NCBI RefSeq assembly: GCF_002159495.1
Contig: NZ_NFIT01000001.1
Location: 1-64,000, forward strand
Direction: 5' to 3'
Length of the DNA stretch: 64,000 bases
Source of the DNA: Olsenella sp. An293
Lineage (GTDB): Bacteria; Actinomycetota; Coriobacteriia; Coriobacteriales; Atopobiaceae
Part shown: piece by piece, positions 38,688-63,222 of the stretch
How positions within the stretch are numbered: position 1 is the stretch's first letter
Layout: every line of letters starts with the position of its first letter
Made by a program: the position numbers and the translations under genes
The notes under the pieces: generated by a model
Seen by the model: the letters and a program-made list of their open reading frames with translations, nothing else
The model's database searches: none
Told to the model about the DNA's origin: nothing

Positions 38688-38829
38688 CTTGCTCGCCCTT
38701 TCCTGAAAGCACGCGGACACAGGGATTTTACGGCGTGCGACGTGCGGGAAGGACGCGGGCGGGCGGCGCGTTCGCAAACGGAAACCATGGGAACGCGGGT
38801 CACGGACGTGACAGGCGCTTCGCGGCATG

Positions 38830-42461: not shown

Positions 42462-42462
42462 G

Positions 42463-43467: not shown

Positions 43468-43470
43468 GGT

Positions 43471-43704: not shown

Positions 43705-43754
43705 GATGTTTCCTTTCTGTCGGTGGTGATGAGAGGGGACGGTCCCTTTCGTCG

Positions 43755-44174
43755 TTAGTCGAGCTCGAAGCAGAGCTCCTTGTAACCGGGGCGGTCGATG
43801 ATCTTGGGGTGGACGCCGACCTTCTCGCCGGCGATGAGGCGGGCGCGGATGTCGGCGGCCTTCTTCTTGGTGATGCCGAAGATCACGTAGGTGTAGGCCG
43901 GGCCCTCGTCGAGCTCGACGGCGCCGTAGGCGTACTTGCCGACCTCGCGCAGGTAGGGCTTGTCGTTTTGCGGCCCGGGAAGCGTGAAGTCGATGAGGCG
44001 GCCGTGGCCGGAGACCTCGCACCACTCGGTCGCGTGATAGCCGCAGGCGTTGCAGGCCAGGTGGGGCGGGAACTCGATCGCGCCGCACTCGAGGCAGCGA
44101 CGGCCGTAGAGCTTGCCCTCCTCGAGGCCCTGGTAGAACTTCTTGACGACGGGCTCCATCTGATCAAGCTGCAT
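43755..44174 (-). CDS. DUF35 zinc-ribbon/OB-fold protein
   Basis: A 139-residue protein of the DUF35 family: a rubredoxin-like zinc ribbon with Cys27, Cys30, Cys41 and Cys44 (RRCLECG, ACNACGYHATEWCEVSG), followed by an OB-fold (YAYGAVELDEGPAYTYVIFG). DUF35 proteins bind acyl-CoA and act as obligate partners of SCP2-type thiolases, as in HMG-CoA synthase complexes and steroid aldolases. The thiolase gene is immediately upstream. AAGGAGG precedes the ATG. It probably stabilises the thiolase and helps load or channel its substrate. Confidence 0.9.
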   Translation of the reverse strand: MQLDQMEPVVKKFYQGLEEGKLYGRRCLECGAIEFPPHLACNACGYHATEWCEVSGHGRLIDFTLPGPQNDKPYLREVGKYAYGAVELDEGPAYTYVIFGITKKKAADIRARLIAGEKVGVHPKIIDRPGYKELCFELD

Positions 44175-44205
44175 GGGGTATGCCTCCTTTGTCCTCTCGG
44201 CTCTT

Positions 44206-45492: not shown

Positions 45493-45683
45493 AGCATCAC
45501 ATCCTTTTCCGAAGCATTGCGTACCTTCCATGTCTCGCATGCTATGCCGCATGCCAAATGCCGAGAAGAACCTCTGGGCTCAGGGCGTTCCGCCCTGTGG
45601 GACAACTTTGCGTACGGTGTTTCTTTTCGCTGGTGAAAGGTATTGTTCGAGAGGGAGCGGGTCTGCCGCTCGGCGGTCGGAAC

Positions 45684-47972: not shown

Positions 47973-48962
47973 CTAGCGCTCGATCTTGAGCGTCGGGAAC
48001 TCCATCTTGGCGTACTTCTCCATCAGCGGCTTGACCTCGTCGAGGTGCGCGAAGAACTCATCGCGCGTCTTGTTGATCTCGTTGAGGTGCTCGGCGCGTG
48101 CCTTGTCGTCGTTGCGGTCGCGGATGAGGCCGTTCTCGGCGATCTTGAGGTAGGGACGACCGGTCTCCTCGTTGACGGCGAGGTCGCCGCCGGCGCCGCA
48201 CACCGCGCACTCCCACGGGAACTCGATGCCGTCCCAGTGCTTGTCGCCGGGGTAGACGAGCGAGCTGTGGCAGTTGGGGCACACGCCGTCATCGGGGTCG
48301 CCGAGCCAGGTGCGCTCCTCGACCGGCGTCTGGATGGCCTTGACGATGTTCTCGCCCATCTTGCGGGCGCGGGCGAGCTGGCCGCCCCACTCGACGTCGT
48401 CGCCCCAGACGAAGGCATTGCCCGGGCGGCCGTCGCGCTGCGCCATGTAGCGGTCGACGACCTGCAGCGACATCGTGAACATGGTGGCCTGCAGGCTCTC
48501 GAGGGCGAGGCTCTGCCAGTCGTGCATGGAGCCGCCCACCGCGATCAGGCCGGCCACGGTGTGCGGGTTCTCCTTCACCGCGCCGATGGCGAGAAGGAAC
48601 GACAGCTCGTAGGCAAGGAAGCGCTGCGCGAAGCGCGTGTAGACCGAGCTCGGGGTGAGGTCGTAGGTCGGGACGGCGAAGATCACGCCGTGGCAGGTGC
48701 GCAGCTCGCTCACGATGGCGTCGACGTCGTCCTTGTTCTTGAGGACGCAGCCGTGATACTCCTTCTGGAGGCCCGCGCCGACCTTGCCCATCTGCATCGT
48801 GCAGCCCTCGCAGCCGGTGCACGGCAAGATGTTGTAGTCAAAGAGGTTGATCAGCTCGACCTCGCCGCCGGCCTCCTGGACCGCGCAGAGCGCCTCCTTG
48901 GCGAGCGCCTCGCCGTTGCCTCCGTGCCTGCCGGCGCAGATTGCCATGACCTTGAAAGACAT
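47973..48962 (-). CDS. iron-sulfur flavoprotein-like reductase (1)
   Basis: A 329-residue protein with an N-terminal flavodoxin-like NADPH:FMN reductase domain (FKVMAICAGRHGGNGEALAK). It carries a compact cysteine cluster CTGCEGC (Cys48, 51, 54) with a further Cys in YHGC, as in iron-sulfur flavoproteins. Residues 130-250 contain family helices and a WGDDVEWGGQLARARKMGEN block. A C-terminal zinc-ribbon-like domain follows (VCPNCHSSLVY and WECAVCGAGGDLAV), which is an unusual addition. It should be cytoplasmic and pass electrons between Fe-S and FMN. A paralogue with the same plan is at 54465. The substrate is unknown. Confidence 0.82.
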   Translation of the reverse strand: MSFKVMAICAGRHGGNGEALAKEALCAVQEAGGEVELINLFDYNILPCTGCEGCTMQMGKVGAGLQKEYHGCVLKNKDDVDAIVSELRTCHGVIFAVPTYDLTPSSVYTRFAQRFLAYELSFLLAIGAVKENPHTVAGLIAVGGSMHDWQSLALESLQATMFTMSLQVVDRYMAQRDGRPGNAFVWGDDVEWGGQLARARKMGENIVKAIQTPVEERTWLGDPDDGVCPNCHSSLVYPGDKHWDGIEFPWECAVCGAGGDLAVNEETGRPYLKIAENGLIRDRNDDKARAEHLNEINKTRDEFFAHLDEVKPLMEKYAKMEFPTLKIER

Positions 48963-49353: not shown

Positions 49354-50439
49354 CTAGCGCTTGCGGATGGGGATCGGGCGCGGCGGGGTGCGCGGCTTGT
49401 CGGCGCCGGCCATGATGATGGCCTCCTCGTCGCAGACGCTCACGCACTTGCCGCACTGCGTGCACGCCTTCTGGTCGATAACGTGGATGAAGCGCGGCTT
49501 GCCGAGGATGGCCTCGTCCTCGCAGGCGTCGACGCACTCGCCGCAGCCCACGCACTTGGTGGGCAGGATGTGGTAGGTCATGTACGCCTTGCACTCCCCC
49601 GCCGGGCAGACCTTCTTGGTGAAGTGCTGCTCGATCTCGTCGCCAAAGGCGTCGAGCGCGGAGAGCACGGTGCGCGCCATCACGCGGCCCATCTCGCAGA
49701 GGCTCTGCGTCTCCATGACGGGGCAGAGGTCGCGCAGCAGCGCCACGTCGGAGGCCTTGCCCTTCTTGCGGCAGATGTCGCTCACGATCTGCGCGATCTG
49801 GTGCCCGCCCTCGTGGCCGAAGACGCACCGGCCGCAGGTCTCGTGCCGGTAGAGCTGGCACACCTGGTCGAGCGCGCTCGCCATGCACGACTCCTGGCCG
49901 TACACGCGCACGTAGTCGCTGCCGAGCTCGACGGCGGCGTCGGCGTTCGAGGCCGAGAAGAACGCGCCGGTGGGATAACCCACGTAGACCGCCTTGGCGT
50001 CGCTCACGCCGGAGGCCGCGACGAGCGCGCCCACGGTCGTGGACGCGGGGAGCTCGACGGGGGCCTGCACGCCCTCGAACCAGGTCCAGCGGGAACCCTC
50101 GGCGCCGAGGAGCTCGGAGCCGGCAACGAGGCGCAGCTCAGGGGTGGTGCCGGTGACCTCAGAGGGCAGAGGTTTCTCGCCTGCCAGCACGCAGGCGCAC
50201 GCGGTGTCGTTGGCGTAGACAAAGCCGAGGGACGCGTCGGCCTCGACCACGCGCGCGGCGTCGCCGAGAAGCTCGCGCAGGCGCGCGGCGAGCTCGGGCT
50301 CCGAGGACGGCACGAGCACCGCCACCTCTCCCCCGAGGCCGGCGATCCTCTCTGCCGCGCCCTCGACGTCGGCCTTCAGGAGGTGAAGGGAGACGGGCGC
50401 CGCCGCGTAGGTCGGCATGAAGCTCACAATAGTCGTCAT
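49354..50439 (-). CDS. NuoF-like Fe-S subunit lacking the FMN/NADH domain
   Basis: A 361-residue protein that matches only the C-terminal half of NuoF/HydB-type subunits, plus a ferredoxin tail. The first 140 residues resemble no flavin domain. A SLBB-like segment follows (VELPASTTVGALVAASGVSD), then the NuoF Fe-S domain (HETCGRCVFGHEGGHQIAQI to LRDLCPVMETQSLCEMG), and two 4Fe-4S motifs (CVGCGECVDACEDEAI and CTQCGKCVSVCDEEAI). The usual glycine-rich FMN/NADH loop is absent. It is 14 bases downstream of the NuoG-GltD fusion gene, with which it probably forms a soluble electron-transfer complex. The ATG at 50439 (MTTIVSFMPTYAA) has GAAGGGAGCG upstream. Confidence 0.82.
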   Translation of the reverse strand: MTTIVSFMPTYAAAPVSLHLLKADVEGAAERIAGLGGEVAVLVPSSEPELAARLRELLGDAARVVEADASLGFVYANDTACACVLAGEKPLPSEVTGTTPELRLVAGSELLGAEGSRWTWFEGVQAPVELPASTTVGALVAASGVSDAKAVYVGYPTGAFFSASNADAAVELGSDYVRVYGQESCMASALDQVCQLYRHETCGRCVFGHEGGHQIAQIVSDICRKKGKASDVALLRDLCPVMETQSLCEMGRVMARTVLSALDAFGDEIEQHFTKKVCPAGECKAYMTYHILPTKCVGCGECVDACEDEAILGKPRFIHVIDQKACTQCGKCVSVCDEEAIIMAGADKPRTPPRPIPIRKR

Positions 50440-50453
50440 TTCTCGCTCCCTTC

Positions 50454-52580
50454 CTAGTACTCGTTCCACAGGCGCGGGGTGGTGAGGGTCAGGCGCAGAT
50501 CGCACTGCAGGCAGCGCGACGCCTCGCAGCGGGCCTCGTCCTCGGTGAACGGGCACTCGAAGACGTCGAAGGTGTGCGCGCGCTCCTCGGCCGGCGCGAT
50601 CTTGGGCTCGACGCGGCCGCCGTAGAAGCCCTCGGGGACCTTGTCCACGCGCTGCTGCGGCATCTCGGCGTCGAGCAGCTCGGCCGTGATGTCGCCGTCG
50701 CCGCCGAGGTGGCGGTCGATCGAGCTCGCGGCCTCGCGGCCCTGCTCGATGGCGGCGATGACGGACTTGGTGCCCGTGACGCAGTCGCCGGCGGCCCAGA
50801 CGCCCTCGGCGCTCGTGGCGAGCTCGGCGTCGGCCGCGATGTAGGGGCCGTGCGTGAGCTCGAGGCCCATCGCGTCGGTGCCCTCGGGCTTCTGGCCCAC
50901 GGCAAAGATCACGTGGTCGGCGGGGATCGTGAGCTCGCCGCCCTCGACGAGCTCGGTCACCGCGCGGTGGTTCTCGTCAAAGTAGAAGCGCTCGATCTTG
51001 TGAATCGTGACGGAGCCAACGCGGCCGGATCCGGGCTCGGACTCGTTGATGGAGGTGAAGGCGTAGGCGTCGTGGAGCTCCACGCCCTCCTCGGCGGCCT
51101 CCTCGCGCTCCTCGGGCGTGGAGGTCATCTTATCGATGGACTCGAGGCAGGCCACGTCGACCTTCTCGGCACCCAGGCGCACGGCCGTGCGGGCGCAGTC
51201 GTAGGCCACGTTGCCGCCGCCGAGCACCACCACGCGGCCGGTCACGTCCATCGGCTCGCCGGTGCGGGCCGCCTTGAGGAAGTCGGTGTTGACGTAGACG
51301 CCCTCGAGGTCGGAGCCCTCCATCGGAAGGCGGGTGCCCACGTGGGTGCCCACGGCCACGAGCACGGCGTCATAGCCCTCGCCGAGAAGCGCCCTGGGAT
51401 CGGCCACGCGCTCGCCGCAGCGGATGTCGATGCGCGGCTCGGCGTCGGTGCCCTGGGAGATCTCGCGGATGATGTCGACCTCGTGGTCGACGGTGGCGTC
51501 GGGCAGGCGGTAGGCCGGGATGCCGTAGCGCAGCTGCCCGCCGACCTTCTCGTTGGCCTCGAAGACCGTCACCAGGTGGCCCTTCTCGGCGAGGAACAGA
51601 GCCGCCGTGAGGCCCGCGGGGCCGGCGCCCACGACGGCCACGCGCTTGCCCGTGAGCGGCTCGTGGCGCACGCGGCTCTTCCACTCGCCGGTGTCGCGCA
51701 CCGCTGCCGCGCGCTTGAGGCGGCAGACCGAGAGCGGCGCGGTCAGGTCGTTGCGCTTGCACTCGCTCTCGCAGTTGTGGTTGCAGATGGTGCCGAGGGT
51801 CTCGGGGAACGGGACCTTCTCGCGCACGACGGCCGTCGCGGCCTCCCACTCGCCGTCGCGGACGTGGCGCAGGTAGCGCGGGATGTCGATGTGCGCCGGG
51901 CAGCCAAAGCGGCAGGGCACGACGTCCTCCTCGCGGGAGCGGTCCTCGTGCACGCGGGAGAGCACGTCGATGATCGAGCCCGTGGGGCAGACCTCGATGC
52001 ACGCGCCGCAGAAGCGGCAGCCCGCCTCCTCGAGCGAGACCGAGCCGTCGGTGCCGATGCGGATGCCCTCCTCGGTGTGCTGGTAGTCCAGGACGCCAAC
52101 CCCGCGCAGCTCGCGGCAGGCGCGCACGCAGCGGCCGCAGCGGATGCAGCGCGTGAACATGTGGGTGATGAGCGGGTTGGACTCGTCGGTGGCGACGGGG
52201 CGGCTCTTCACGCGCCAGCGCGTGGGCGAGACGCCCAGGTACTGGTACATCGACTGCAGCTCGCACTTGCCGTACTTGGGGCAGCCGGTGCAGTCGGTAG
52301 GGTGCGTGGCGAGGATGAGCTCCATCGCCATGCGGCGCACGCGGTCGGCGCGCTCGCCGTTGACGTTGACCTGCATGCCCTCGCGCACCTCGGTCTTGCA
52401 GGCGCACACGGGCTCCTCCGCGCCGTCGACCTCGACCATGCACAGGCGGCAGCCGCCCACGGCCTCGAGGTCGGGGTGCTTGCAGAGGTGCGGGATGAAG
52501 ATGCCGGCTTCGAGCGCCGCGTCGAGGACCGACTGGCCCTCGCGTGCCTCGACCTGCTGGCCGTTGATCGTGAGCTTCAC
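50454..52580 (-). CDS. NuoG N-terminal domain fused to GltD-like oxidoreductase
   Basis: A 708-residue fusion. Residues 1-75 are a 2Fe-2S ferredoxin (HLCKHPDLEAVGGCRLCMVE; Cys33, 44, 47). Next is the NuoG His-Cys cluster (HPTDCTGCPKYGKC) and two 4Fe-4S motifs (CIRCGRCVRACRE, CRFCGACIEVCPTGSI). From about residue 220 it is a GltD/NfnB-like unit: a CRFGCPAHIDIPRYL Fe-S domain, FAD-binding VAVVGAGPAGLTAALFLA, NAD(P)-binding VVVLGGGNVAYDCARTA and the C-terminal GVWAAGDCVTGTKSVIAAIE. The domain order recalls StnC/NfnB-type subunits of electron-bifurcating transhydrogenases. It likely oxidises or reduces NAD(P)H and exchanges electrons with the adjacent NuoF-like subunit. Confidence 0.88.
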   Translation of the reverse strand: MKLTINGQQVEAREGQSVLDAALEAGIFIPHLCKHPDLEAVGGCRLCMVEVDGAEEPVCACKTEVREGMQVNVNGERADRVRRMAMELILATHPTDCTGCPKYGKCELQSMYQYLGVSPTRWRVKSRPVATDESNPLITHMFTRCIRCGRCVRACRELRGVGVLDYQHTEEGIRIGTDGSVSLEEAGCRFCGACIEVCPTGSIIDVLSRVHEDRSREEDVVPCRFGCPAHIDIPRYLRHVRDGEWEAATAVVREKVPFPETLGTICNHNCESECKRNDLTAPLSVCRLKRAAAVRDTGEWKSRVRHEPLTGKRVAVVGAGPAGLTAALFLAEKGHLVTVFEANEKVGGQLRYGIPAYRLPDATVDHEVDIIREISQGTDAEPRIDIRCGERVADPRALLGEGYDAVLVAVGTHVGTRLPMEGSDLEGVYVNTDFLKAARTGEPMDVTGRVVVLGGGNVAYDCARTAVRLGAEKVDVACLESIDKMTSTPEEREEAAEEGVELHDAYAFTSINESEPGSGRVGSVTIHKIERFYFDENHRAVTELVEGGELTIPADHVIFAVGQKPEGTDAMGLELTHGPYIAADAELATSAEGVWAAGDCVTGTKSVIAAIEQGREAASSIDRHLGGDGDITAELLDAEMPQQRVDKVPEGFYGGRVEPKIAPAEERAHTFDVFECPFTEDEARCEASRCLQCDLRLTLTTPRLWNEY

Positions 52581-52721: not shown

Positions 52722-54206
52722 CTAGTACTCGAAGAGCTTGGCGGCGGCGTTCTCGCCGGCGATGCGCCCGGAGTTGAGGCAGAAGCCCATGGTGTTGCCC
52801 GGGATGCAGTAGTTGTAGGAGTCGCCGTAGATGGTGCAGGCGTCGGTGCCCACGCAGTAGAGGCCGGGGATGACCTTGTAGTCGTCGGTCATGACCTCCA
52901 TGTTGTGGTTGATCAGCACGCCGCCCAGGGTGCCGTAGGCGCCGATGTACTGCTTGCAGCAGTAGAACGGGCCCTTCTCGAGCGGCTGCATGAACTCGCG
53001 CTCCTTCTCGAAGATCTCGTCCCAGCCGCTCTCGCACATCTCGTTGTACTCCTCGACGTTGGCGATGAGGCCTTCGACGTCGATGCCGGCCTTCTCGGCG
53101 AGCTCCTCGAGGGTGTCGGCCTGGCAGATGGGCTCGTAGCCGTCGGCGAGGTCGCGCTCCCACTGCTCGTCGAAGCCCTCGTAGAGGTCGTGCGGGTGGA
53201 CATGGGAGACGATGTCCGGGCCGTCCTTCTTCCAGTGCTTGAGCATCTTGGAGTCAAAGATCGCGTAGGCGACCTTGCCGGGCAGGTGGTTGATCGCGTT
53301 GCCCACGAAGGTGGTGTTGAAGATCTCGTCCTCGGGCATGAAGCGCTCGCCCATGCGGTTGCACCAGTAGCAGGGCTGGCGGAAGGCGCCCTCGACGTAG
53401 AAGTGGTTCATGTTGTCGGGGATCTGGTACATCATCTCCATGGTGACCGGGGTGTGGCCGGCGCCCACGGAGTGGCACATGTTGATGCCGTCGCCGTCCA
53501 TGCCGGGGATGGCGAAGGAGAACAGGTTCTTGCCCCACTCGAAGCCCATGGTGTCCTTGATCATCTGGGCGTTGTGGCCAAAGCCGCCGGTGGCGACGAT
53601 GACCGAGGAGCAGGAGATCTCGTACTCCTCGCCGTTCTTGTCCTTGGCGGTGACGCCCACGACGGCGCCCTCGTCGTTGGTGATGAGGCCGGTGCCGGGG
53701 CACTCGAGCATGAACTCGACGCCGAGCTCCTGGGCGTGCTCGGTCATGCGCTTGGTCATCGTGGTCGCGGCGCGCGGGCCGGGCTCGGAGCCGTCCTCGG
53801 GCTGGACGACATGCCAGGTGTACTCGCCGTCGGCGTAGGCGCGGGTGCGCTCGCGGGCGCGGAACGCCGGGCGGACGCTGTTGAACTCGACGCCCATGTC
53901 CATGAGCCACTGGATGGTGTCGCCGCTCTTGAAGTAGTAGTCGCGCACGAGGCGGGCGTCGACCTGGTAGTGGGTGTAGAACATGTGACGGCGGAAGAGC
54001 TCGCCGGGGGTGACCTCGATCATCGAGGCCTTCTGGAGGGGCGAGCCGGCCGCGGCCGGGCCCATGCCCATGTTGGCGGCGCCGCCGGTGTTGGACGCCT
54101 TCTCGAGGGTGATGACCCTCGCGCCGCTCTCGGCGGCCGCCACGGACGCGGCGAGGCCGGAGAGGCCGGCCGCGATGACGACGACGTCGGTCTCAAGCTG
54201 CTTCAT
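52722..54206 (-). CDS. soluble fumarate reductase-type flavoprotein
   Basis: A 494-residue FAD enzyme of the fumarate reductase/succinate dehydrogenase flavoprotein family. The dinucleotide fold is DVVVIAAGLSGLAASVAAAE, with Ala for the first Gly. FAD contacts continue in NTGGAANMGMG, SVIVATGGFGHN and the C-terminal LYCVGTDACTIYGDSYNYCI followed by PGNTMGFCLNSGRIAGE. There is no Tat signal, FMN-binding domain or haem motif, so it is cytoplasmic and needs an external donor, probably the neighbouring Fe-S proteins. Coriobacteriia carry many such reductases, each for a different organic acceptor. The acceptor here cannot be read from sequence. AGGAGGA precedes the ATG. Confidence 0.88.
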   Translation of the reverse strand: MKQLETDVVVIAAGLSGLAASVAAAESGARVITLEKASNTGGAANMGMGPAAAGSPLQKASMIEVTPGELFRRHMFYTHYQVDARLVRDYYFKSGDTIQWLMDMGVEFNSVRPAFRARERTRAYADGEYTWHVVQPEDGSEPGPRAATTMTKRMTEHAQELGVEFMLECPGTGLITNDEGAVVGVTAKDKNGEEYEISCSSVIVATGGFGHNAQMIKDTMGFEWGKNLFSFAIPGMDGDGINMCHSVGAGHTPVTMEMMYQIPDNMNHFYVEGAFRQPCYWCNRMGERFMPEDEIFNTTFVGNAINHLPGKVAYAIFDSKMLKHWKKDGPDIVSHVHPHDLYEGFDEQWERDLADGYEPICQADTLEELAEKAGIDVEGLIANVEEYNEMCESGWDEIFEKEREFMQPLEKGPFYCCKQYIGAYGTLGGVLINHNMEVMTDDYKVIPGLYCVGTDACTIYGDSYNYCIPGNTMGFCLNSGRIAGENAAAKLFEY

Positions 54207-54464: not shown

Positions 54465-55433
54465 CTAGGCGCGCGGGGGCATCGTGGGCTGGATGAGGTC
54501 GCGATAGTAGGCGACGCGGTCCTTGTAGGCCTGGGTCTTCTTCATCTCCGCGAGCTTGCCCTCGTTCTCGGCGATGTCCTTGCCGTGGATCTCCTTGCCG
54601 GACTGGATGTCGTGGGCCTTGTGCAGGTCCTCGTCGGCGTAGGTGACCTTCACGACGCCGTCCTCGACCGAGACGGTGCCCTCGAGGCCGCAGACGCAGC
54701 AGATGGCGCGGTTCTCGCCGGGGACGAGGTAGAAGTCGTTGCAGTTGCAGTGCGGGCAGATGCCGGGCTTGCCCTGGTAGGTGGCGTGCTCGATGTCCTT
54801 GGCGGCGTTGGCCAGGTTGACGCCGATCTGGTGGGCACGCTCGATCAGGGAGTCGTCCATGAGGGCGGTCTTGGACCAGGCGACCCACTCGTTGTCAATG
54901 ACCTTCCAGCTGGGGGTCATGGCCTGGAGCTGGTGCTCGGACTGGACGTGGGTGCCCCAGTCGGAGCCGCCGATGCCGATGTAGGAGACGACCTTGGGGC
55001 TCATGATCGCGGGGTTGGGCACCTCGACGCCCTTGGCGGCGGCGCCGCCCTGGGCAAGGCGGCCCTGGGCGATCTGGGTGCCGATGAAGTTGTTGCCGGT
55101 GTCCATGCGGGGCCCGAAGCGGTCCATGATGGTGTGGAAGAGGCCCGACGCGCCGGTCTCGAAGATCGGGTCGACCATGATGACGCCGTCGGCGTTGAAC
55201 ATCTCGAAGGCGAGCCAGTCAAAGTCGTCCTTGTGGACGCACATGTTCTTGGTGCCGCTCATGAGCATCTTGACGCAGGTGATGCAGCCGGTGCAGTGCT
55301 TGATGTCAAGGTCCATCGCGCGGATGAACTCGATCTCGCAGCCCTCCTCCTGGCAGGCCTTGAGCACCTCCTTGCAGATGCAGTCGTTGTTGCCGTTCTT
55401 GGTGCCAAACGAAACGCCCACGATCTTGGTCAT
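54465..55433 (-). CDS. iron-sulfur flavoprotein-like reductase (2)
   Basis: A 322-residue paralogue of the protein at 47973. It begins with a flavodoxin-like strand (TKIVGVSFGTKNGNNDCICK) and has the compact cysteine cluster CTGCITC (Cys47, 50, 53) with Cys65, compatible with one 4Fe-4S cluster. MVDPIFETGASGLFHTIMDR is the FMN-domain helix. A C-terminal zinc-ribbon-like domain follows (ICPHCNCNDFYLV and AICCVCGLEGTVSVED). It is cytoplasmic by lack of a signal. AAAGGGG precedes the ATG. The upstream spacer holds element E. It probably belongs to the same redox module as the flavoprotein gene downstream of it. Confidence 0.83.
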   Translation of the reverse strand: MTKIVGVSFGTKNGNNDCICKEVLKACQEEGCEIEFIRAMDLDIKHCTGCITCVKMLMSGTKNMCVHKDDFDWLAFEMFNADGVIMVDPIFETGASGLFHTIMDRFGPRMDTGNNFIGTQIAQGRLAQGGAAAKGVEVPNPAIMSPKVVSYIGIGGSDWGTHVQSEHQLQAMTPSWKVIDNEWVAWSKTALMDDSLIERAHQIGVNLANAAKDIEHATYQGKPGICPHCNCNDFYLVPGENRAICCVCGLEGTVSVEDGVVKVTYADEDLHKAHDIQSGKEIHGKDIAENEGKLAEMKKTQAYKDRVAYYRDLIQPTMPPRA

Positions 55434-55676: not shown

Positions 55677-57233
55677 CTACCGGCGCGAGGCCTCGAGGAC
55701 CTGCGCGGTGAAGGAGAGCGCCAGGCGGTCCTCGCCGTCCTTGAGGTCGACGAAGAAGAGCTCCTTGACCTTGTTCATGCGGTAGAAGTAGGTGTTGCGG
55801 TGGACCGAGAGCGCGGCGGCCGCCTCGGCGGGGCTGCCGGGGTGGCGCACGGACATGATGGCGGTCTCGAGGTAGGCCGTGCCGTGCTCCCGGTCGTAGG
55901 CGTACATCGCCACCACGCGCTTGTCAAGCATCATGTCGACGCGCTCCCGCGTGCCCGCGACGGCAGCCAGCACGCCAAAGCGGTTCTCCCAGAAGTAGCA
56001 GACGCGGCCGCGGGCGCGCGGGTCGGGCACGCGCATGAGCAGCCGGCACTGCTCGAGGCGGGCGCCGGCGCGGTCGACCTCGTCAAAGGGCTCGCTCACG
56101 AAGGCGCGCAGGTCGTTGTTCTCGAGCATCGAGGCCAGGGCGGAGTTGGCGGAGAGGCGCCGGACGCAGCGCGCGTAGTCGTCGTAGCCAACGGCCTCGC
56201 TCCTGCCCACCGGCACCAGCGCGCACAGGACGCCGTCCTCGATGCACCACAGGCAGCTGCGCACCGCGCGGCCCACCATCGAGCCCACGCGGGCGAGGTA
56301 GTCGCGGTCGGCGTCGCGCTGGCCGGAGAACGTGAGCATCGCGTAGGACCCGTCCCGCGGGAGGTGCGTGACCCCAAGCTGGGCGCGCATGGTCTCCTCG
56401 TTGACGAAGCCGCCGGTCACGAGGTCGTGCAGGACCGAGGAGCCAAACCCCACGCGCTCGCCGGCGAGGCCGAGGCGGTCGATGAGGATGCCCGCGAGCT
56501 GGGAGGCGTAGTCGATGAGCTCGAGGTCGATGCCGGATATCGGGCGGTCCTTCTCCATCACGTCGAAGCGACCCATCTCGAGATGATGGAAGTAGACCAT
56601 CGAGGTGACCCAGCTTCGGGCGTAGCGCGCGCTGAAGGCGAGGATGGAGTGATGCGAGCGCCGCACGCCCTCGATGATGCCGTCGGCCTCCATGTCGGCG
56701 TTGACCATCTCGGAGATGTAGCCCTGCGCGAGGACCTCCTGCGCGTCGAGGGCGTCGACCGGGAACTCGCCGGCAGTGGCGAGCACGCGCTGGTCGGAGT
56801 TGAGGACGATCACGGGATTGCCGAGCACCTCCGAGGAGCGGCGCGCGAACTGCGCCACGTCGTAGGAGCCGAGAAACGCGTTGAACATCCGCTCGCGCAG
56901 CAGCTCCAGCACCGCGATGCGGGAGGGCAGGTCGAGAAACTGGGCCCGCAGGTCCTCGTAGCAGCTCGGATGGGAGATGAGCACGACATTGCCCGCGGGC
57001 GAGGCGTCGGCGGGGATCTTGGGCCCCGCGTGGACGAGCAGAAGCTCGCGCTCGCCCGCGCTGACCCTCCCGTCCGCCCAGTCCTCGAGGCGGCACAGGC
57101 GCACGAACAGCATGTCCCCCGGGGTCGTCGAGCCGTACTCGGGGGTGAGCAGGACGTTGGCGTCCAAAAGCTCCGGTCGCGCCGGCCAGAGCGCCCCGCA
57201 CGCCAGCTCGTTGACGACCGTTCTCAGCTTCAT
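55677..57233 (-). CDS. PucR-type regulator (2)
   Basis: A 518-residue regulator of the PucR/CdaR class. The C-terminal helix-turn-helix is SPAEAAAALSVHRNTYFYRM, followed by NKVKELFFVDLKDGEDRLAL. A middle domain runs from about residue 280 (YAMLTFSGQRDADRDYLARV). The N-terminal half contains a PucR-like ligand region beginning MKLRTVVNELACGALWPARP. GGAGGGGGAG precedes the ATG at 57233; the open frame extends far upstream through the divergent hydrolase gene but is not coding there. It is divergent from the hydrolase-ACP-kinase operon with a 246-base gap, so it is the likely regulator of that operon. Confidence 0.86.
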   Translation of the reverse strand: MKLRTVVNELACGALWPARPELLDANVLLTPEYGSTTPGDMLFVRLCRLEDWADGRVSAGERELLLVHAGPKIPADASPAGNVVLISHPSCYEDLRAQFLDLPSRIAVLELLRERMFNAFLGSYDVAQFARRSSEVLGNPVIVLNSDQRVLATAGEFPVDALDAQEVLAQGYISEMVNADMEADGIIEGVRRSHHSILAFSARYARSWVTSMVYFHHLEMGRFDVMEKDRPISGIDLELIDYASQLAGILIDRLGLAGERVGFGSSVLHDLVTGGFVNEETMRAQLGVTHLPRDGSYAMLTFSGQRDADRDYLARVGSMVGRAVRSCLWCIEDGVLCALVPVGRSEAVGYDDYARCVRRLSANSALASMLENNDLRAFVSEPFDEVDRAGARLEQCRLLMRVPDPRARGRVCYFWENRFGVLAAVAGTRERVDMMLDKRVVAMYAYDREHGTAYLETAIMSVRHPGSPAEAAAALSVHRNTYFYRMNKVKELFFVDLKDGEDRLALSFTAQVLEASRR

Positions 57234-57479
57234 GGCTCCCCCTCCGGACCCGACGGCGGGACGGCCCGCCCGCTCTTCTCGCCCCCATGATAGCAGCGCG
57301 TTGTGCTGTTGACCAAGGGCTCTGAGCTGGGCGATGGGCAGCGGTACCGCGCGGGCCCGCCACGGGGCCCCAAAGTTTGTAACCCAGTCCAATGAAGTTC
57401 TTGGCCCAAACGCCCACACTCTGGGGCAGGGAAAGCGCCCGCCGGGCACGCCCGGGGGCTCGTCAGAGAGGAGCGCCGC

Positions 57480-59273
57480 ATGGCCGAGAAGAGAGAGGGC
57501 ATCGTCAAGAAGATGACCTTCGGCGGGGAGGAGTTCGAGGTCCCCTTTGCCAAGGGCAACCCCGGCAAGTCCCGCGAGGAGCTCGAGGAGATCAAGCGCC
57601 GCCTGGCCGAGGACCCCGACGCCGGCGACGGCGAGATGGTCGCCACGATGGGGTTTTGCGCCCCCTACCAGCCGCACACCTACATGACCGAGATCCCCGG
57701 CGTCATGTGCGAGCGCGACCAGGCCTGCGTCCTGCGCGACGGCACCACCATCTACGCGGACATCTACCGTCCCGCCAACACCACCGAGAAGGTGCCGGTC
57801 ATCTGCGTCTTTGCCCCGTTTGGCAAGAACCCCTCCGAGGGCATGGACTCCTGGCAGCTCATGGGCGTGCCACCCAAGACGGTCTCCCAGTACGCCAAGT
57901 TCGAGGCGCCCGACCCCGGCTACTGGTGCCACTACGGCTACGCCGTGGCCAACGTGGACCCGCGCGGCGTGGGCAACTCCGAGGGCGACGTCTACCTCTG
58001 GGGCAGCCAGGACGCCCAGGACGGCTATGACTTCATCGAGTGGGTCACCGCTCAGGAGTGGTGCAACGGAAAGGCCACGATGATCGGCAACTCCGGCGTG
58101 TGCATGGCCCACTGGCGCATCGCCGCCACCCGTCCGCCCCACCTCGCGTGCCTGGCGGCCTGGGAGGGCCAGGGCGACCTCTACCGCGAGAGCTACTACT
58201 GCGGCGGCATCCCCAACCCCGACTACGAGACCCACATCATCCAGGCGCTCGCGGTCAACAACTACATCGAGGATACGCCGGCGATGGTCGCCCAGTACCC
58301 GCTCATGAACGCGTACTACAAGGACAAGATCGTCGACTGGAACAAGATCCGCATCCCCACGTACGTGACGGCCGGCTGGGTCCACCACCACCTGCGCGGC
58401 GCCTTCGAGGGCTTCCGCCGCATCCGCTCGCCCAAGAAGTGGATGCGCGCGCACCGCGACTTCGAGTGGCCCGACAGCTACAAGCCCGAGAATCTCGAGG
58501 ACCTGCGCCGCTTCTTCGACCGCTACTGCAAGGACATCCACAACGGCTGGGAGATGACGCCGCGCGTGCGCATCGACGTCATGGACGGCTATGACTTTGA
58601 CTACGCCGACCGCCGCCCGGAGGAGTCCTTCCCGCTCAAGCGCACCGAGTACAAGAAGCTCTACCTCAACGCCGCCGACGGCTCCGCGAGCTTTGAGAAT
58701 CCCGGGCAGGAGGCCGAGGTCGTCTACGACCCCAAGACCGAGACCACGACGTTCACCTATCAGTTCACCGAGGACACCGAGATCACGGGCTTCATGAAGC
58801 TGCACCTGAACGTCGAGTGCCGCGGCTACGACAACATGGACCTGTTCCCCTGGGTCATCAAGCTCGACAAGGACGGCAACTACGTGCCGATCCGCGTCAT
58901 GGGCGCGCCCTTCCGCGGCGCATGGGGGTTCCTGCGCTGCAGCCACCGCGAGCTCGACCCCAAGTACGCGAGCGACTTCCAGCCGGTGCACGCTCACACC
59001 AAGGAGGAGCGCATGCAGCCCGGCGAGATCGTGCCGGTGGACGTGGAGATGTACCCGCACTCCCGCTTCTGGCACAAGGGCGAGAAGATCCAGGTGGTCA
59101 TCGCCGGCCGCTTCATCAAGACCGAGTGGTTCCACGACAACGACATGAACCACAAGACCGACAACGGCGACGGCATGCACGTCATCCACACCGGCGGCGA
59201 GCACGACTCCTACCTGCAGATCCCCGTGGTGCCGCCCAAGTACCAGGTCGGCGACTACGTCTACCGCGGCTAA
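57480..59273 (+). CDS. CocE/NonD (S15-type) alpha/beta-hydrolase
   Basis: A 597-residue hydrolase of the X-Pro dipeptidyl-peptidase S15/CocE family. It has the N-terminal catalytic fold (QACVLRDGTTIYADIYRPAN, YAVANVDPRGVGNSEGD) and a nucleophile elbow ATMIGNSGVCMAHWR with Ser205. A cap follows, and then a C-terminal jelly-roll (TEDTEITGFMKLHLNVECRG). The candidate acid and His lie around TYVTAGWVHHHLRGAFEGF. Known members cleave esters, amides and some C-C bonds through an acyl-serine. It is the first gene of the second ACP-acyltransferase-kinase cassette, so its product acyl group may be handed to ACP; this is inference. AGAGAGGAGCG precedes the ATG. Confidence 0.87.
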   Translation: MAEKREGIVKKMTFGGEEFEVPFAKGNPGKSREELEEIKRRLAEDPDAGDGEMVATMGFCAPYQPHTYMTEIPGVMCERDQACVLRDGTTIYADIYRPANTTEKVPVICVFAPFGKNPSEGMDSWQLMGVPPKTVSQYAKFEAPDPGYWCHYGYAVANVDPRGVGNSEGDVYLWGSQDAQDGYDFIEWVTAQEWCNGKATMIGNSGVCMAHWRIAATRPPHLACLAAWEGQGDLYRESYYCGGIPNPDYETHIIQALAVNNYIEDTPAMVAQYPLMNAYYKDKIVDWNKIRIPTYVTAGWVHHHLRGAFEGFRRIRSPKKWMRAHRDFEWPDSYKPENLEDLRRFFDRYCKDIHNGWEMTPRVRIDVMDGYDFDYADRRPEESFPLKRTEYKKLYLNAADGSASFENPGQEAEVVYDPKTETTTFTYQFTEDTEITGFMKLHLNVECRGYDNMDLFPWVIKLDKDGNYVPIRVMGAPFRGAWGFLRCSHRELDPKYASDFQPVHAHTKEERMQPGEIVPVDVEMYPHSRFWHKGEKIQVVIAGRFIKTEWFHDNDMNHKTDNGDGMHVIHTGGEHDSYLQIPVVPPKYQVGDYVYRG

Positions 59274-59358
59274 CGCGAGGAAAAGGGGCGCTCCCCTCTC
59301 CACATACGGCAAACGCGGAAGAGGGGCGGTCCCTCTTCCACAAGCGAAAGGAAGCAAG

Positions 59359-59610
59359 ATGAACGAGTTCCAGGAAGAGGTCGTGGACATCCTCAAGAAC
59401 AAGGCGGCCGAGATCTTTGGCGTGGACGCCTCCACCCTGTCCGCCGAGACGCGCTTCGTCGACGACCTGCACTGCAAGTCCGTCAACATCGTGCAGTTTG
59501 CGTCCGCGCTCGAGGACGAGTACGAGGTCGAGGTCCCCTACATGCAGCTCAACAAGTGCGCGACCTTCGCCGACGCCGCCAAGTTTGTGGATGACGCCCT
59601 GTCCATGTAG
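59359..59610 (+). CDS. acyl carrier protein with KSV at the prosthetic-group site (cassette 2)
   Basis: An 83-residue acyl carrier protein. The attachment site aligns as VDDLHCKSVNIVQFASALED, with Ser41 retained and DSL replaced by KSV. Helix 3 is DEYEVEVPYMQLNKCATFAD. It lies 85 bases after the hydrolase gene, and GAAAGGAAGC precedes the ATG. Small stems (GGGGCGCTCCCC near 59287, GGAAGAGGG...CCCTCTTCC near 59318-59340) occupy the gap. A stem with a T run separates it from the next gene. It is only weakly similar to the ACP of cassette 1, so the two are old paralogues or independent recruits. Confidence 0.88.
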   Translation: MNEFQEEVVDILKNKAAEIFGVDASTLSAETRFVDDLHCKSVNIVQFASALEDEYEVEVPYMQLNKCATFADAAKFVDDALSM

Positions 59611-59617
59611 CACGAAC

Positions 59618-59661
59618 GGCCCGGCAGCGCGGCCCCTCTCGGCCGCCGCCGGGCCCTTTTT
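59618..59661 (+). terminator. terminator inside the operon, between ACP and acyltransferase genes
   Basis: GGCCCGGC and GCCGGGCC pair, with inner GCGGCC/GGCCGC, and are followed by CTTTTTCT. This looks like a full intrinsic terminator. Its place between two genes that should work together suggests it lowers rather than stops read-through, making ACP the more abundant product. Confidence 0.75.
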
Positions 59662-59679
59662 CTATCGAAAGGACCTGAC

Positions 59680-60675
59680 ATGACGCTTATCGAGAAGCTC
59701 GTGGAGGACGCCAAGGCGGCGCCCGCGCGCCGCGTTGCCCTGCCCGAGTGCGAGGCAGCAAAGACCCTGCTCGCCGCCCGTCGCGTGCTCGACGAGGGCG
59801 TGGGGACGCCCGTGCTCGTGAGCCCGCGCGAGGTCATCGAGGCCACGGCCGCCGAGGCCGGAGTTGCGCTCGATGGCATGGAGATCGTCGACTCCTCCGA
59901 CGAGGCGGCCGCCGACGCGCTGGCCGAGCGCTACATGGCCGGCGGCGCCCGCCTGCTCTCCGCCAAGGGCACCCGCCGCAAGATCAAGAGCCCGATGTGG
60001 TACGCGATGGTCATGGAGGAGCTCGGCGACGTGGACTGCACCTTCTGCGGCCACACCAACACCACCGGCGACGTCCTCATGGCCGCCCAGACCATCATCG
60101 GCCTCAAGGAGGGCGTGGATGTCCCGTCGATCTTCGCACTCGTGGAGACCGAGGGCTTCGAGGGCCCGGAGGGCAACGTCGTCTGCTTCGCCGACTGCGG
60201 GCTCAACCCCGAGCCCACGGCCTCCGAGCTCGCCTCCATCGCCATCTCCGCGGCGGACAACGTGGCCGCCATCATGGGCTGGGAGCCGCGCGTGGGCTTC
60301 CTCTCGTACTCCACCTGCGGCTCGGGCGCCGGCAGCTCGGTTGACCGCGTGAACGAGGCGATCTCGCTCGTGCACGAGCGCAGGCCCGACATCGCCGCCG
60401 ACGGCGAGTTCCAGCTCGACGCCGCCATCGACGAGGCCGTCGCCGCCAAGAAGGTGGGTCGCGACTCGGCCGTCGCGGGCCGCGCCAACGTGCTCATCTT
60501 CCCCGACCTCAACTCCGCCAACCTCGCGGTGAAGATCGTCCAGCGCTTCGCCCACGGCGCCGCCTACGGTCACACGCTCTCCGGCTTCAAGTGCCCCGTG
60601 GCCGACTCCTCCCGCGGAGCCACCGTCGACGAGATCGTCGGCGACATCGCGATGCTCGTCCTCGCCGCCCGCTAG
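59680..60675 (+). CDS. phosphate acyltransferase, Pta/Ptb family (cassette 2)
   Basis: A 331-residue phosphate acetyl/butyryltransferase-family enzyme. Typical blocks are RRVALPECEAAKTLLAARRV, FCGHTNTTGDVLMAAQTIIG, ADGEFQLDAAIDEAVAAKKV, AGRANVLIFPDLNSANLAVK and HGAAYGHTLSGFKCPVADSS, the last being closer to acetyl-specific Pta than cassette 1 is. It would convert an acyl thioester and phosphate to acyl-phosphate. It sits between the ACP and acyl kinase genes. GAAAGGACC precedes the ATG. Carrier preference (ACP or CoA) is not visible in the sequence. Confidence 0.9.
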   Translation: MTLIEKLVEDAKAAPARRVALPECEAAKTLLAARRVLDEGVGTPVLVSPREVIEATAAEAGVALDGMEIVDSSDEAAADALAERYMAGGARLLSAKGTRRKIKSPMWYAMVMEELGDVDCTFCGHTNTTGDVLMAAQTIIGLKEGVDVPSIFALVETEGFEGPEGNVVCFADCGLNPEPTASELASIAISAADNVAAIMGWEPRVGFLSYSTCGSGAGSSVDRVNEAISLVHERRPDIAADGEFQLDAAIDEAVAAKKVGRDSAVAGRANVLIFPDLNSANLAVKIVQRFAHGAAYGHTLSGFKCPVADSSRGATVDEIVGDIAMLVLAAR

Positions 60676-60685
60676 CGCCGACGCC

Positions 60686-60725
60686 GGGCGAGAGGGACGC
60701 GTCCGTTCTTCTCGCCCGCATTTTG
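60686..60725 (+). terminator. terminator inside the operon, between acyltransferase and kinase genes
   Basis: GGGCGAGA and TCTCGCCC pair around GGACGCGTCC, followed by GCATTTTGTTGTG. The 3' arm contains CTTCTCG (60708-60714), showing one way the recurrent word can be built into a terminator. Confidence 0.65.
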
Positions 60726-60799
60726 TTGTGTCCGCACAAAGACAGGGGCCGCCGCGCCGCGCACAATCGCCGTACGGCGCGCCCGCAGAAAGGAACCGC

Positions 60800-61921
60800 A
60801 TGGGCCACAAGATCCTCACGCTCTCCCCCGGCTCCACCTCCACGAAGGTGGCTGTCTTCGACGGGACCGAGGCGCTCTTCCGTCTCAACGTCACCCACCC
60901 CGCCGAGGAGATCGCGGCCTTCGACAACGCCGCCGACCAGTTCGAGTACCGCCGCCAGACCATCCTCGACGCCCTCGCCGAGCAGGGCATCGCCCTCGAG
61001 GACATCGACGCCTTCTCCGGCTACTGCGGCGCGATGGGCCCCACCGTCGGCGGCATCTTCGCCATCGACGACACGGTCTGCGACCACGTCATGAACGCCG
61101 GCGTCAACCACCCCGCCATCCTCGGCGCGCCGCTGCTGCACGCCTTCGCGCAGGCGACCGGCAAGCCCGCCTACGCCGTCAACCAGCCCGACACCGACGA
61201 GCTCGTCGACGTGGCGCGCATCACCGGATTTCCCGGCGTCTACCGCAAGAGCCACGTGCACTGCCTCAACCAGAAGGAGTGCGCGATCCGCTGCGCCGCC
61301 GAGCTCGGCCTCACCTACGAGGGCGGCTCCTTCATCGTGGCGCACGTGGGAGGCGGCCTCTCCGTCGCCTGCCACAACCACGGCCGCATGGTCGACACCA
61401 ACGACGTCCTCGAGGGCTCCGGCCCCTTCGCGCCCAACCGCTCCGGCGACGCGCCGCTCAAGCCTGTGGTGAAGCTCGCCTACTCCGGCGCGACCAAGAA
61501 GGAGCTCGACGGCGTCATCGGCAAGACCGGCGGCCTGCTCGGGCTGCTCGGCACCGACGACGCGCGCCAGATCACGGCGCGCATCGAGGCCGGCGACGCC
61601 TGGGCGGAGGTCGTCTACGACGCGATGGCCTACCAGGTCGCCAAGGCGATCGGCGCCTTCGCCGCGGTCCTCGCCGGCAAGGTCGACGGCATCGTGCTCA
61701 CCGGCGGCGTCTCCCACGACCCGCGCTTCGTGTCCTACGTGACCGAGCGCGTGGGCTGGATCGCCCCGGTCAAGGTCTACGCCGGCGACTTCGAGATGGA
61801 CGCGCTCGCCGCGGGCGCCATCCGCGCGCTCGAGGGCACCGAGCCCGTCATGACCTACACCGGCGAGCCCAGCTGGAAGGGTTTCACGATGGACGGCGCC
61901 ATCGCCGACGTCGAGGGCTAG
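60800..61921 (+). CDS. buk: butyrate kinase-type acyl kinase (cassette 2)
   Basis: A 373-residue acyl kinase of the butyrate kinase branch, paralogous to the gene at 41352. Motifs are ILTLSPGSTSTKVAVFDGTE, FSGYCGAMGPTVGGIFAIDD, FIVAHVGGGLSVACHNHGRM and GIVLTGGVSHDPRFVSYVTE. It makes ATP from an acyl-phosphate. The ATG at 60800 follows GAAAGGAACC; the open frame begins earlier, inside the terminator, but without a ribosome site. It is followed 26 bases later by the MFS gene, so transport and energy capture are co-expressed. Confidence 0.92.
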   Translation: MGHKILTLSPGSTSTKVAVFDGTEALFRLNVTHPAEEIAAFDNAADQFEYRRQTILDALAEQGIALEDIDAFSGYCGAMGPTVGGIFAIDDTVCDHVMNAGVNHPAILGAPLLHAFAQATGKPAYAVNQPDTDELVDVARITGFPGVYRKSHVHCLNQKECAIRCAAELGLTYEGGSFIVAHVGGGLSVACHNHGRMVDTNDVLEGSGPFAPNRSGDAPLKPVVKLAYSGATKKELDGVIGKTGGLLGLLGTDDARQITARIEAGDAWAEVVYDAMAYQVAKAIGAFAAVLAGKVDGIVLTGGVSHDPRFVSYVTERVGWIAPVKVYAGDFEMDALAAGAIRALEGTEPVMTYTGEPSWKGFTMDGAIADVEG

Positions 61922-61947
61922 GACAAGAGATAGGAGACGCAAGGCCC

Positions 61948-63222
61948 ATGACCGAGAAGAACGTCGAGACTGGCGCGAGGGCGGGCGGGTTCCACTACGC
62001 CTACGCCATCGTCGCGTCCTGCATAGCGATAACGTTTCTCCCCTGCGCGCTCGTGCTGTCGTGCGCCGGCATCTTCTTCACGCCGGTCTCGCAGTACTTT
62101 GGGGTGGCGACCGCGGAGTTCACGCTGTACTTCTCGGTGCTCAACATCGCCCAGATGCTCACCCTGCCCGTGGCCGGCAAGCTCCTCTCGCGCCTCGACG
62201 CGCGGGCGGTGCTCTCCGCGGCCGTGGTGCTGTGCGCCCTCGGCCTCGCGGGCATGAGCCAGTGCCAGGCCATGTGGCAGTTCTACGTCTGCGGCGCGGT
62301 CCTGGGCGTAGGCGTGTGCCCGCTGATCTACCTCTCCGTGCCCACGCTCGTGAACGCCTGGTGCGTCAAGCGCGTCGGCTTCTTCGTGGGCCTGTGCATG
62401 GCGTTCACCGGCATCGGCGGCGTGGTCTTCAACCCCGTGGGCACGGCGCTGATCAACTCCGGCGCCGAGGGCTGGCGCACCGCCTACCTGGTCTTCGCCG
62501 CGATCGTGGCGGTGGGTACGCTGCCGTTCACGCTGCTCGTGGTGCGCAGCCGGCCCGAGGACAAGGGCCTTGCCCCCTACGGCGCCGGCGAGGCGGCCGC
62601 GGGCGACGGCGCGAAGGCCGAGCTCTCCGGCGTGCCCGCGGAGCGCGCCATGCGCATGCCGGCGTTCTTTGCCCTCGCTGCCTTCTGCGGCGTGATCACG
62701 CTCAACCAGACCATCTACCAGTTCCTTGCCGGCTACGCCCAGTCCTTCGCCGACACCATGCCCGCCATCGCCGCCGCCTCCGGCATCGTGGCGAGCGCCG
62801 CGATGGGCGGCCAGGCCGTGGGCAAGGTCGTGCTCGGCGCCGTGAACGACCGCTCCGTGCACGCCGGCGTGGTGCTGGGCATCGGGGCGGGCGTTGCCGG
62901 CATCACGCTCATGTGGCTCTTCCCGGGCGCGCTCGCGCTGCTGCTCGTGGGCTCCTTCCTCTTTGGCGTGGTCTACGCGATGACCACCGTGCAGACGCCG
63001 CTGCTCGTGCGCACCGTCTTCGGCAGCGCCGACTACACCAACATCTACTCGCGCGTCTCGATGGTGGGCTCGCTCATGAGCGCCGTCGCCGCCGTGCTCT
63101 GGGGCCTGGTCGTGGACTCCGCGGGCGGCTACCCGCTGATGTTTGTCCTTGGCTACGGCTGCATGGCCGTGTGCCTCGTGCTCGCGCTCTTCTCGCTCAA
63201 GGCGAGGCCGCACGTGGCGTAA
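61948..63222 (+). CDS. MFS transporter (oxalate/formate antiporter-like)
   Basis: A 424-residue major facilitator with about twelve helices in two bundles split by a charged loop (RSRPEDKGLAPYGAGEAAAG, residues 195-215). The overall look (YFGVATAEFTLYFSVLNIAQ, GVGVCPLIYLSVPTLVNAWC, AFTGIGGVVFNPVGTALINS) fits the OFA family of carboxylate carriers and antiporters. As the last gene of the hydrolase-ACP-acyltransferase-kinase operon it probably imports the substrate or exchanges it for the acid end product. The N-terminus is short and hydrophilic (MTEKNVETGARAGG). Substrate not determinable. Confidence 0.88.
   Translation: MTEKNVETGARAGGFHYAYAIVASCIAITFLPCALVLSCAGIFFTPVSQYFGVATAEFTLYFSVLNIAQMLTLPVAGKLLSRLDARAVLSAAVVLCALGLAGMSQCQAMWQFYVCGAVLGVGVCPLIYLSVPTLVNAWCVKRVGFFVGLCMAFTGIGGVVFNPVGTALINSGAEGWRTAYLVFAAIVAVGTLPFTLLVVRSRPEDKGLAPYGAGEAAAGDGAKAELSGVPAERAMRMPAFFALAAFCGVITLNQTIYQFLAGYAQSFADTMPAIAAASGIVASAAMGGQAVGKVVLGAVNDRSVHAGVVLGIGAGVAGITLMWLFPGALALLLVGSFLFGVVYAMTTVQTPLLVRTVFGSADYTNIYSRVSMVGSLMSAVAAVLWGLVVDSAGGYPLMFVLGYGCMAVCLVLALFSLKARPHVA

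Follow-up and report, generated by a model that had tools for sequence, protein, structure and literature searches.

Introduction

Substrate-level phosphorylation via acyl phosphates is textbook biochemistry and is built on coenzyme A (CoA) thioesters. The phosphotransacylase (PTA) and butyrate kinase (BUK) families normally use CoA. Here, we analyzed a row of five genes in a 64,000-nucleotide stretch of DNA from Olsenella sp. An293 (the window), in which a CocE/NonD-type serine hydrolase (HYD) and an acyl carrier protein (ACP) precede a PTA, an acyl kinase and a carrier of the major facilitator superfamily (MFS). The source genome comprises 2.31 Mb on 35 contigs and is 99.75% complete. Judged from sequence, ACP-based substrate-level phosphorylation appears to be the best reading of this module, and we regard it as rather probable.

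The Pta-AckA and Ptb-Buk pairs contain the same PTA and acyl kinase families and likewise lead from acyl phosphate to ATP. They use CoA, whereas the carrier here appears to be a dedicated ACP, and the arginine equivalent to Arg133 of M. thermophila Pta (MtPta) is lost in all 30 module PTAs; moreover, the acyl donor here would be an ACP-tied serine hydrolase or a thiolase. PlsX/FakAB of Firmicutes also interconvert acyl-ACP and acyl phosphate and include an acid kinase, but they serve phospholipid synthesis (PMC12594616), while the kinase of our module is of the butyrate kinase type and its phosphotransacylase PTA1 matched PF01515. With CocE/NonD hydrolases such as cocaine esterase and S. aureus SACOL2612 (PDB 3ib3), HYD shares fold, family and serine nucleophile; the HYD group differs by N-terminal ACPs in some members, by a GNSxV nucleophile context and by its ACP, PTA and BUK neighbors. 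We know of no function for SACOL2612. PhlACB and archaeal thiolase-HMGCS complexes contain a thiolase subunit with a zinc-ribbon/OB-fold partner. The same combination recurs in a second module of the window, where unlike in PhlACB-like complexes it is followed by ACP, PTA and kinase; no third, PhlACB-like synthase gene was seen by eye in the open reading frame list of 41352–45552, the rest of the genome not having been searched for one.

Phloretin hydrolase is a metal enzyme of another fold. Together with anaerobic phloroglucinol breakdown it would concern the same compound class as our module, if the phenolic reading given below is right (PMC10470551, PMC11170127). In phloroglucinol breakdown, phloretin hydrolase acts upstream and ATP is formed via CoA thiolase and phosphate acyltransferase/kinases (PMC10470551), i.e., from CoA thioesters after ring opening, unlike the ACP route considered here (PMC10470551, PMC11170127). 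The term "acyl carrier" has no occurrence in the main text of either article. If our module acted on such ketones, the bond captured would be the one that is hydrolyzed by phloretin hydrolase. The original prediction knew of no described pathway with this exact gene order, and we likewise found no description among the matches listed from the open-licence literature, a coverage that leaves subscription papers and preprints outside.

Organization of the gene row

The five genes had been presented as a hydrolase-ACP-acyltransferase-kinase-transporter operon. Family scans and sequence confirmed all of them in this order on one strand, in frame, between 57480 and 63222:

57480–59273, plus strand: CocE/NonD-type serine hydrolase HYD, 597 aa (family profiles, predicted model, structural match)
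58092–58094, plus strand: codon of the nucleophile Ser205 in GNS205 (sequence, alignment of relatives)
59359–59610, plus strand: acyl carrier protein ACP1, 83 aa (PF00550; in relatives next to HYD or fused with it)
59479–59481, plus strand: codon of ACP1 Ser41, the phosphopantetheine site, within CKS41VN (sequence)
59638–59653, plus strand: terminator-like hairpin in the ACP1–PTA1 gap, a possible attenuator
59680–60675, plus strand: PTA-type phosphotransacylase PTA1, 331 aa (PF01515; Met where MtPta has Arg133)
60685–60718, plus strand: terminator-like hairpin in the PTA1–BUK1 gap
60800–61921, plus strand: butyrate-kinase-type acyl kinase BUK1, 373 aa (TIGR02707 over cut-off)
61948–63222, plus strand: OFA-like MFS carrier (subfamily models under their cut-offs)

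The intergenic gaps are 85, 69, 124 and 26 bp, in order. The terminator-like hairpins after the ACP and PTA genes call for caution with the term operon. Their folding z values are −3.5 and −4.5, and the hairpin scan overall was modestly above shuffled sequences (6 found, 2.7 ± 1.7 expected). The hairpins may set the ratio of hydrolase and ACP to PTA and kinase. Another structured stretch lies in the HYD–ACP1 gap (z −3.0). The carrier is an MFS protein with 51.4 bits against the OFA subfamily model TIGR00890 (cut-off 374.85). Its closest models, bile-salt, L-lactate and oxalate/formate MFS, were each below their own cut-off.

Hydrolase and acyl carrier protein

HYD scored 118 bits with Peptidase_S15, 117 bits with PepX_C and 185.9 bits with TIGR00976 CocE_NonD, above the cut-off of 66.3. 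Its predicted model (predicted local distance difference test, pLDDT, 86.1; predicted template modeling score 0.88) matched 3ib3_A best (Z 41.9, root-mean-square deviation 1.8, 507 aligned residues), followed by cocaine esterases with Z of about 30. No ACP-linked hydrolase was noticed among these fold matches, which is not evidence of absence. Gly203, Asn204, Ser205 and His325 are invariant across 30 aligned HYD relatives, and Ser205 and His325 align with the serine and histidine of 3ib3; the acidic triad member is not among the assigned residues. Ser205 is thus borne out as the predicted nucleophile, within GNSGV. The cocaine esterase context GVSYLG, with its GxSYxG motif, does not occur in HYD: 14 relatives read GNS(G/A/C)V, with Gly, Ala or Cys instead of Tyr after the nucleophile. 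The six best named relatives, from Atopobiaceae/Olsenella records, are 98–99% identical to HYD.

ACP1 scored 32.8 bits with PF00550 (cut-off 20.8), and the phosphopantetheine serine, Ser41 in ACP1, is invariant in 11 diverse ACPs. As a candidate fatty-acid ACP, ACP1 was rejected with 39.2 bits against a cut-off of 70.45 for TIGR00517; further PP-binding proteins of the genome map to contigs C30 and C35. None of the four PP-binding places of the genome lies beside its two other S15 proteins.

In a scan of a species-genome collection, 183 places encode a HYD relative. The best 80 of these 183 are the named loci, and removal of hydrolases at least 85% identical left 36 non-redundant loci. The 30 neighborhoods from 28 genomes of the family of the source organism overlap with the 80 named loci. 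Among the latter, an ACP is fused to the HYD N-terminus in 21, adjacent (same strand, ≤700 bp) in 47, further off in 5 and locally absent in 7; the corresponding numbers for the non-redundant loci are 8, 21, 3 and 4. Of the seven genomes with no ACP at the locus, six encode a module-type ACP elsewhere (92–131 bits), directly followed by a PTA in five cases and by a second HYD in one. In 29 of the 30 family neighborhoods the ACP is adjacent to HYD, and in the remaining one it is further off. As it lies now upstream, now downstream of HYD, the pairing has survived rearrangement. Second HYD copies occur in the genomes of L096 and L072 (L171:1501-3246 and L164), one directly after a module-type ACP and one beside its own PTA and kinase.

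We read 15 of the 21 fusion proteins. Two ACP domains precede the hydrolase in 8 of them and one in 7, with Ala/Pro-rich linkers between the domains, and the serine is kept in every ACP copy. Multienzyme complexes attach their carrier domains through arms of this kind. An AlphaFold2 model of one fusion consists of a confident ACP, a disordered linker (residues 88–121, pLDDT <50) and the hydrolase.

HYD, called at E ≤ 1e-40, is present in 45 of 140 family genomes, and in 44 of them together with a module-type ACP. The single HYD-only genome is 73% complete, with HYD cut at a contig end, and the four ACP-only genomes are 68–87% complete. With analysis restricted to the 101 good genomes (≥90% complete, ≤5% contaminated), 37 have both genes and 64 have neither, without a mismatch (Fisher p ~2e-28, uncorrected for kinship). 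The pairing is well beyond chance; fusions and co-occurrence rule out a chance neighborhood. The predicted pairing of hydrolase and ACP is hence supported by fusions, by adjacency in the named loci and by the lack of any mismatch.

A pantetheine-carrying function of the ACP, also part of the original prediction, agrees with the conserved serine and with one neighbor cluster, the 4'-phosphopantetheinyl transferase (PF01648), i.e., the holo-ACP synthase. This gene occurs in 54 of 80 named loci, 22 of 36 non-redundant loci and 12 of 30 family stretches, and in 13 of the 22 it begins ≤450 bp downstream of HYD on the same strand. The source genome has an ACP synthase about 1 kb beyond the window end (C1:64992-65297) and a higher-scoring one on another contig. 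As holo-ACP synthase genes recur at HYD loci, the pathway often seems to bring its own ACP-arming enzyme. PTA and BUK genes are likewise frequent: 58 and 55 of the named loci contain them (both in 54), as do 29 and 27 of the non-redundant loci (both in 26) and 18 and 17 of the family stretches (both in 17). A CocE-like enzyme with its own ACP, sometimes fused and often beside PTA and kinase, is found in many gut and rumen anaerobes.

Phosphotransacylase and acyl kinase

BUK1 scored 373.3 bits with the butyrate kinase model TIGR02707, over the equivalog cut-off of 289.1. PTA1 reached 283 bits with PF01515, its sole match in the Pfam scan at E ≤ 0.01, in which no comparison aimed at PlsX was made. 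With TIGR00651, the CoA-dependent phosphate acetyltransferase, it reached 252.3 bits and remained under the equivalog cut-off of 311.2. We aligned 30 module PTAs with MtPta and the canonical PTA of the source genome; the set comprised PTA1, PTA2 of the second module (see below) and 28 of the 29 PTAs from non-redundant loci, L127 being excluded for an overlong called frame. Instead of Arg133, all 30 have Leu, Met, Ile, Phe or His (Met in PTA1, Leu in PTA2); catalytic Ser309 and Arg310 are kept in all 30, and position 316 is Glu in 29. The Arg87 loop is rebuilt; the alignment is uncertain there, and in PTA2 the column reads Arg. The same pattern, Arg133 lost and Ser309/Arg310 kept, was seen in six more module-type PTAs from other loci, of which five accompany an ACP that is distant from HYD and one lies next to a second HYD.

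By comparison, Arg133 is kept in five other sequences, i.e., MtPta and L150, L165, L167 and L168, the latter four without module-type ACP or HYD in the fetched flanks, and in four aligned PTAs of solved structure. The phosphate-butyryltransferase-like L158 and L159 have Arg and Lys, respectively, near position 133, but with a gapped alignment and scores under the family cut-off they are weak controls. In a tree read without support values, 29 of 30 module PTAs group together, and L088 falls outside both groups.

In MtPta, mutations of Arg87 and Arg133 mainly alter Km and those of Ser309 and Arg310 kcat (PMC6461089). In MaeB, an arginine of the PTA domain touches the 3'-phosphate of CoA, acetyl-CoA binding is abolished without it, and the authors state that their binding mode agrees with earlier biochemical data (PMC7902834). 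We infer that this arginine corresponds to the MtPta Arg87 loop. The data fit, without proving it, a module PTA for which the nucleotide part of CoA has become dispensable, and the PTA divergence would fit an ACP substrate. A plain CoA-linked PTA was rejected as the default assignment because Arg133 is lost in 30 of 30, an argument limited by the location of this residue at a second CoA site of MtPta.

These results bear on another explanation of the gene row, an ordinary CocE-type hydrolase beside a CoA-linked PTA-kinase pair, with an ACP that belongs to fatty acid synthesis or is there by accident. The full CocE/NonD fold of HYD and the usual CoA dependence of the PTA and BUK families would fit it. 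The fusions, the dedicated ACP synthase, the matching distribution and the arginine loss all disagree with it, as does the presence elsewhere in the genome of a separate canonical PTA, an acetate kinase and further PP-binding proteins. We consider this explanation very improbable.

A second module on the minus strand

A genome search for other ACPs, PTAs and kinases turned up a second ACP-PTA-kinase set, 45492–41352:

44206–45492, minus strand: thiolase-type acyltransferase (Thiolase_C_1 100 bits; start uncertain)
43755–44180, minus strand: ChsH2-type zinc-ribbon/OB-fold thiolase partner (PF12172 over, PF01796 under cut-off)
43471–43707, minus strand: ACP2 (PF00550, 40.1 bits)
42463–43467, minus strand: PTA2 (Leu where MtPta has Arg133)
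41352–42461, minus strand: acyl kinase BUK2 (PF00871, 66.8 bits)

The PDB relatives of the thiolase are 7yvy, 6esq and PhlC 5m3k. It is present in 45 of 140 family genomes, 37 of which also have HYD; 8 genomes have HYD only and 8 thiolase only. Thiolase and HYD share a fetched stretch in 8 of 30 family neighborhoods and in 5 of 80 named loci, 4 of these 5 being family genomes. Because this thiolase-headed set exists and its PTA2 falls in the module PTA group of the tree, the ACP-PTA-kinase combination seems to be a unit that can be reused, with two enzyme types of unrelated kind supplying its acyl groups. The second module, the fusions and the dedicated holo-ACP synthase had all been missed in the original prediction.

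The ACP might also hold the substrate instead of receiving the product: another enzyme would load it, HYD would be a thioesterase or tethered lyase, and PTA and BUK would serve a later step. The fusions with Ala/Pro-rich linkers fit a delivery arm and a receiving arm alike. We found no ACP-loading ligase among the annotated neighbor clusters, those made mostly of opposite-strand frames being taken as shadows and left unannotated, and none of the 36 loci contains a homologue of the window's AMP-binding ligase. Moreover, ACP-PTA pairs also occur apart from HYD and with the thiolase, as expected for an ACP that is donor to PTA. We judge a substrate-holding ACP unlikely.

Proposed reaction scheme

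For ACP-based substrate-level phosphorylation we propose the following course. Ser205 of HYD would attack an activated acyl compound to give an acyl-enzyme, as its fold suggests, and not water but the phosphopantetheine thiol of the dedicated ACP, whether tethered or free, would take over the acyl group. From their families, PTA would convert acyl-ACP and phosphate to acyl phosphate, the butyrate-kinase-type enzyme would form ATP and acid, and the MFS carrier may export the acid. The second module would follow the same scheme with the thiolase and its zinc-ribbon/OB-fold partner as acyl donor. The mechanism first put forward is partly supported, by strong genomics for the hydrolase-ACP pairing, the pantetheine-ready ACP and a diverged PTA. 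Gene row and hydrolase-ACP partnership are well supported. The wider generalization, i.e., that acyl-cleaving enzymes of unrelated fold (CocE-type, thiolase) unload onto dedicated, in some cases covalently tethered ACPs, from which an ACP-specific PTA clade and a kinase make ATP in a general, undescribed mode of energy conservation, perhaps on plant phenolics, is more tentative, and we would give it slightly less than an even chance.

If the scheme is true, each acyl-ketone or activated-ester bond cleaved would yield anaerobes one ATP. It would extend anaerobic bioenergetics by a new carrier, with a hydrolase fold made a transferase by an attached carrier arm, and give a reason for the clustering of these genes in so many bacteria of gut and rumen. 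The genes would also be markers for an unmapped catabolic route, possibly for dietary polyphenols.

Several points weigh against this reading. Plain oxygen esters have too little energy for good thioester formation, and an activated acyl donor must therefore be assumed. The hairpins, read with caution, would split the gene row, and PTA or BUK is missing from the fetched stretch in 26 of 80 named and 13 of 30 family loci. The genome of L089 encodes HYD, and no module-type ACP was found in it (best 40 bits). Family genomes are non-independent samples, and the C-glycoside deglycosidases discussed below as a pointer to the substrate lie near just 7 of 80 loci. Arg87 and Arg133 of MtPta sit at a second CoA site, considered distinct from the active one, and equivalent mutants of the P. 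gingivalis enzyme showed no more than moderate effects (PMC6461089). Nothing in the genes fixes a direction of flow, and PlsX and FakA work the acyl phosphate/acyl-ACP pair reversibly, in the activating direction too (PMC12594616).

The last point leads to a flow in reverse, in which acid and ATP give acyl phosphate and then acyl-ACP, and HYD or the thiolase acylates an acceptor in biosynthesis or detoxification. This is favored by the reversibility of PTA and acyl kinases and by the presence among the PDB relatives of the thiolase of PhlC, which we take to be a C-acylation enzyme. PlsX/FakA of Firmicutes indeed make acyl-ACP from acyl phosphate (PMC12594616). The setting, with a PucR-type regulator, MFS carriers, C-glycoside deglycosidases and flavin reductases, looks catabolic instead, and by eye no biosynthetic signature genes were seen in 14 locus maps, in which most neighbors are unannotated. 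Reverse flow hence seems improbable to us.

Neighboring genes and possible substrate

Upstream of HYD, the minus strand carries a regulator and several redox genes:

55677–57236, minus strand: divergent PucR-type regulator (HTH_30, 53 bits; homologue in 17 of 36 non-redundant loci)
54465–55430, minus strand: FMN-reductase-family flavoprotein FMNred (PF03358; homologue in 10 of 36 non-redundant loci)
52722–54206, minus strand: FAD-dependent reductase FADred (homologue in 9 of 36 non-redundant loci)
50454–52580, minus strand: NuoG/GltD-like Fe-S NAD(P)H oxidoreductase (family scan)
49354–50439, minus strand: NuoF-like Fe-S subunit (start uncertain)
47973–48962, minus strand: second FMN-reductase-family protein (PF03358)

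The order FADred-NuoG/GltD-NuoF recurs with HYD in L112 and L134. The nearest curated model of FADred is the vinyl phenol reductase VprA, with a score under its cut-off. As a fumarate reductase FADred was rejected: the flavocytochrome c3 stretch NRLGGN, whose arginine presumably acts in dicarboxylate reduction, reads NYCIPGN here, and a dicarboxylate is unlikely. FADred probably reduces something else.

C-glycoside deglycosidase beta homologues, Pfam-confirmed in the two tested, lie near HYD in seven named loci:

L112:6460-7907: C-glycoside deglycosidase homologue
L113:4382-5779: C-glycoside deglycosidase homologue
L074, L096, L101, L107 and L114: C-glycoside deglycosidase homologues

Because of these homologues and of the vinyl-phenol-reductase-like FADred nearby, the loci point weakly to plant phenolics as substrate field. 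The most likely substrate, as far as these weak pointers go, would be a plant phenolic that bears an activated acyl group, e.g., an acyl-phloroglucinol or dihydrochalcone ketone or a phenolic ester, and C=C reduction by FADred and FMNred may precede acyl cleavage. The neighbors vary, those of L072 and L089 including sugar-isomerase-like and Gfo/Idh-like genes, and because they differ between loci the substrate of HYD cannot be fixed from them.

At L138:65-7424, genes for a CoA transferase III, 2-hydroxyacyl-CoA dehydratase subunits, an acyl-CoA dehydrogenase and Etf-like proteins directly precede an ACP-hydrolase fusion gene on the same strand. The AMP-binding ligase of the window (37386–38828, minus strand) has a C-terminal AMP-binding_C_2 domain, presumably resembles phenylacetate-CoA ligase and, by eye, has an ACT-like small protein beside it. 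Between both modules, the plus strand encodes a regulator-like protein (46447–47763) with a C-terminal end that by eye is PucR-like.

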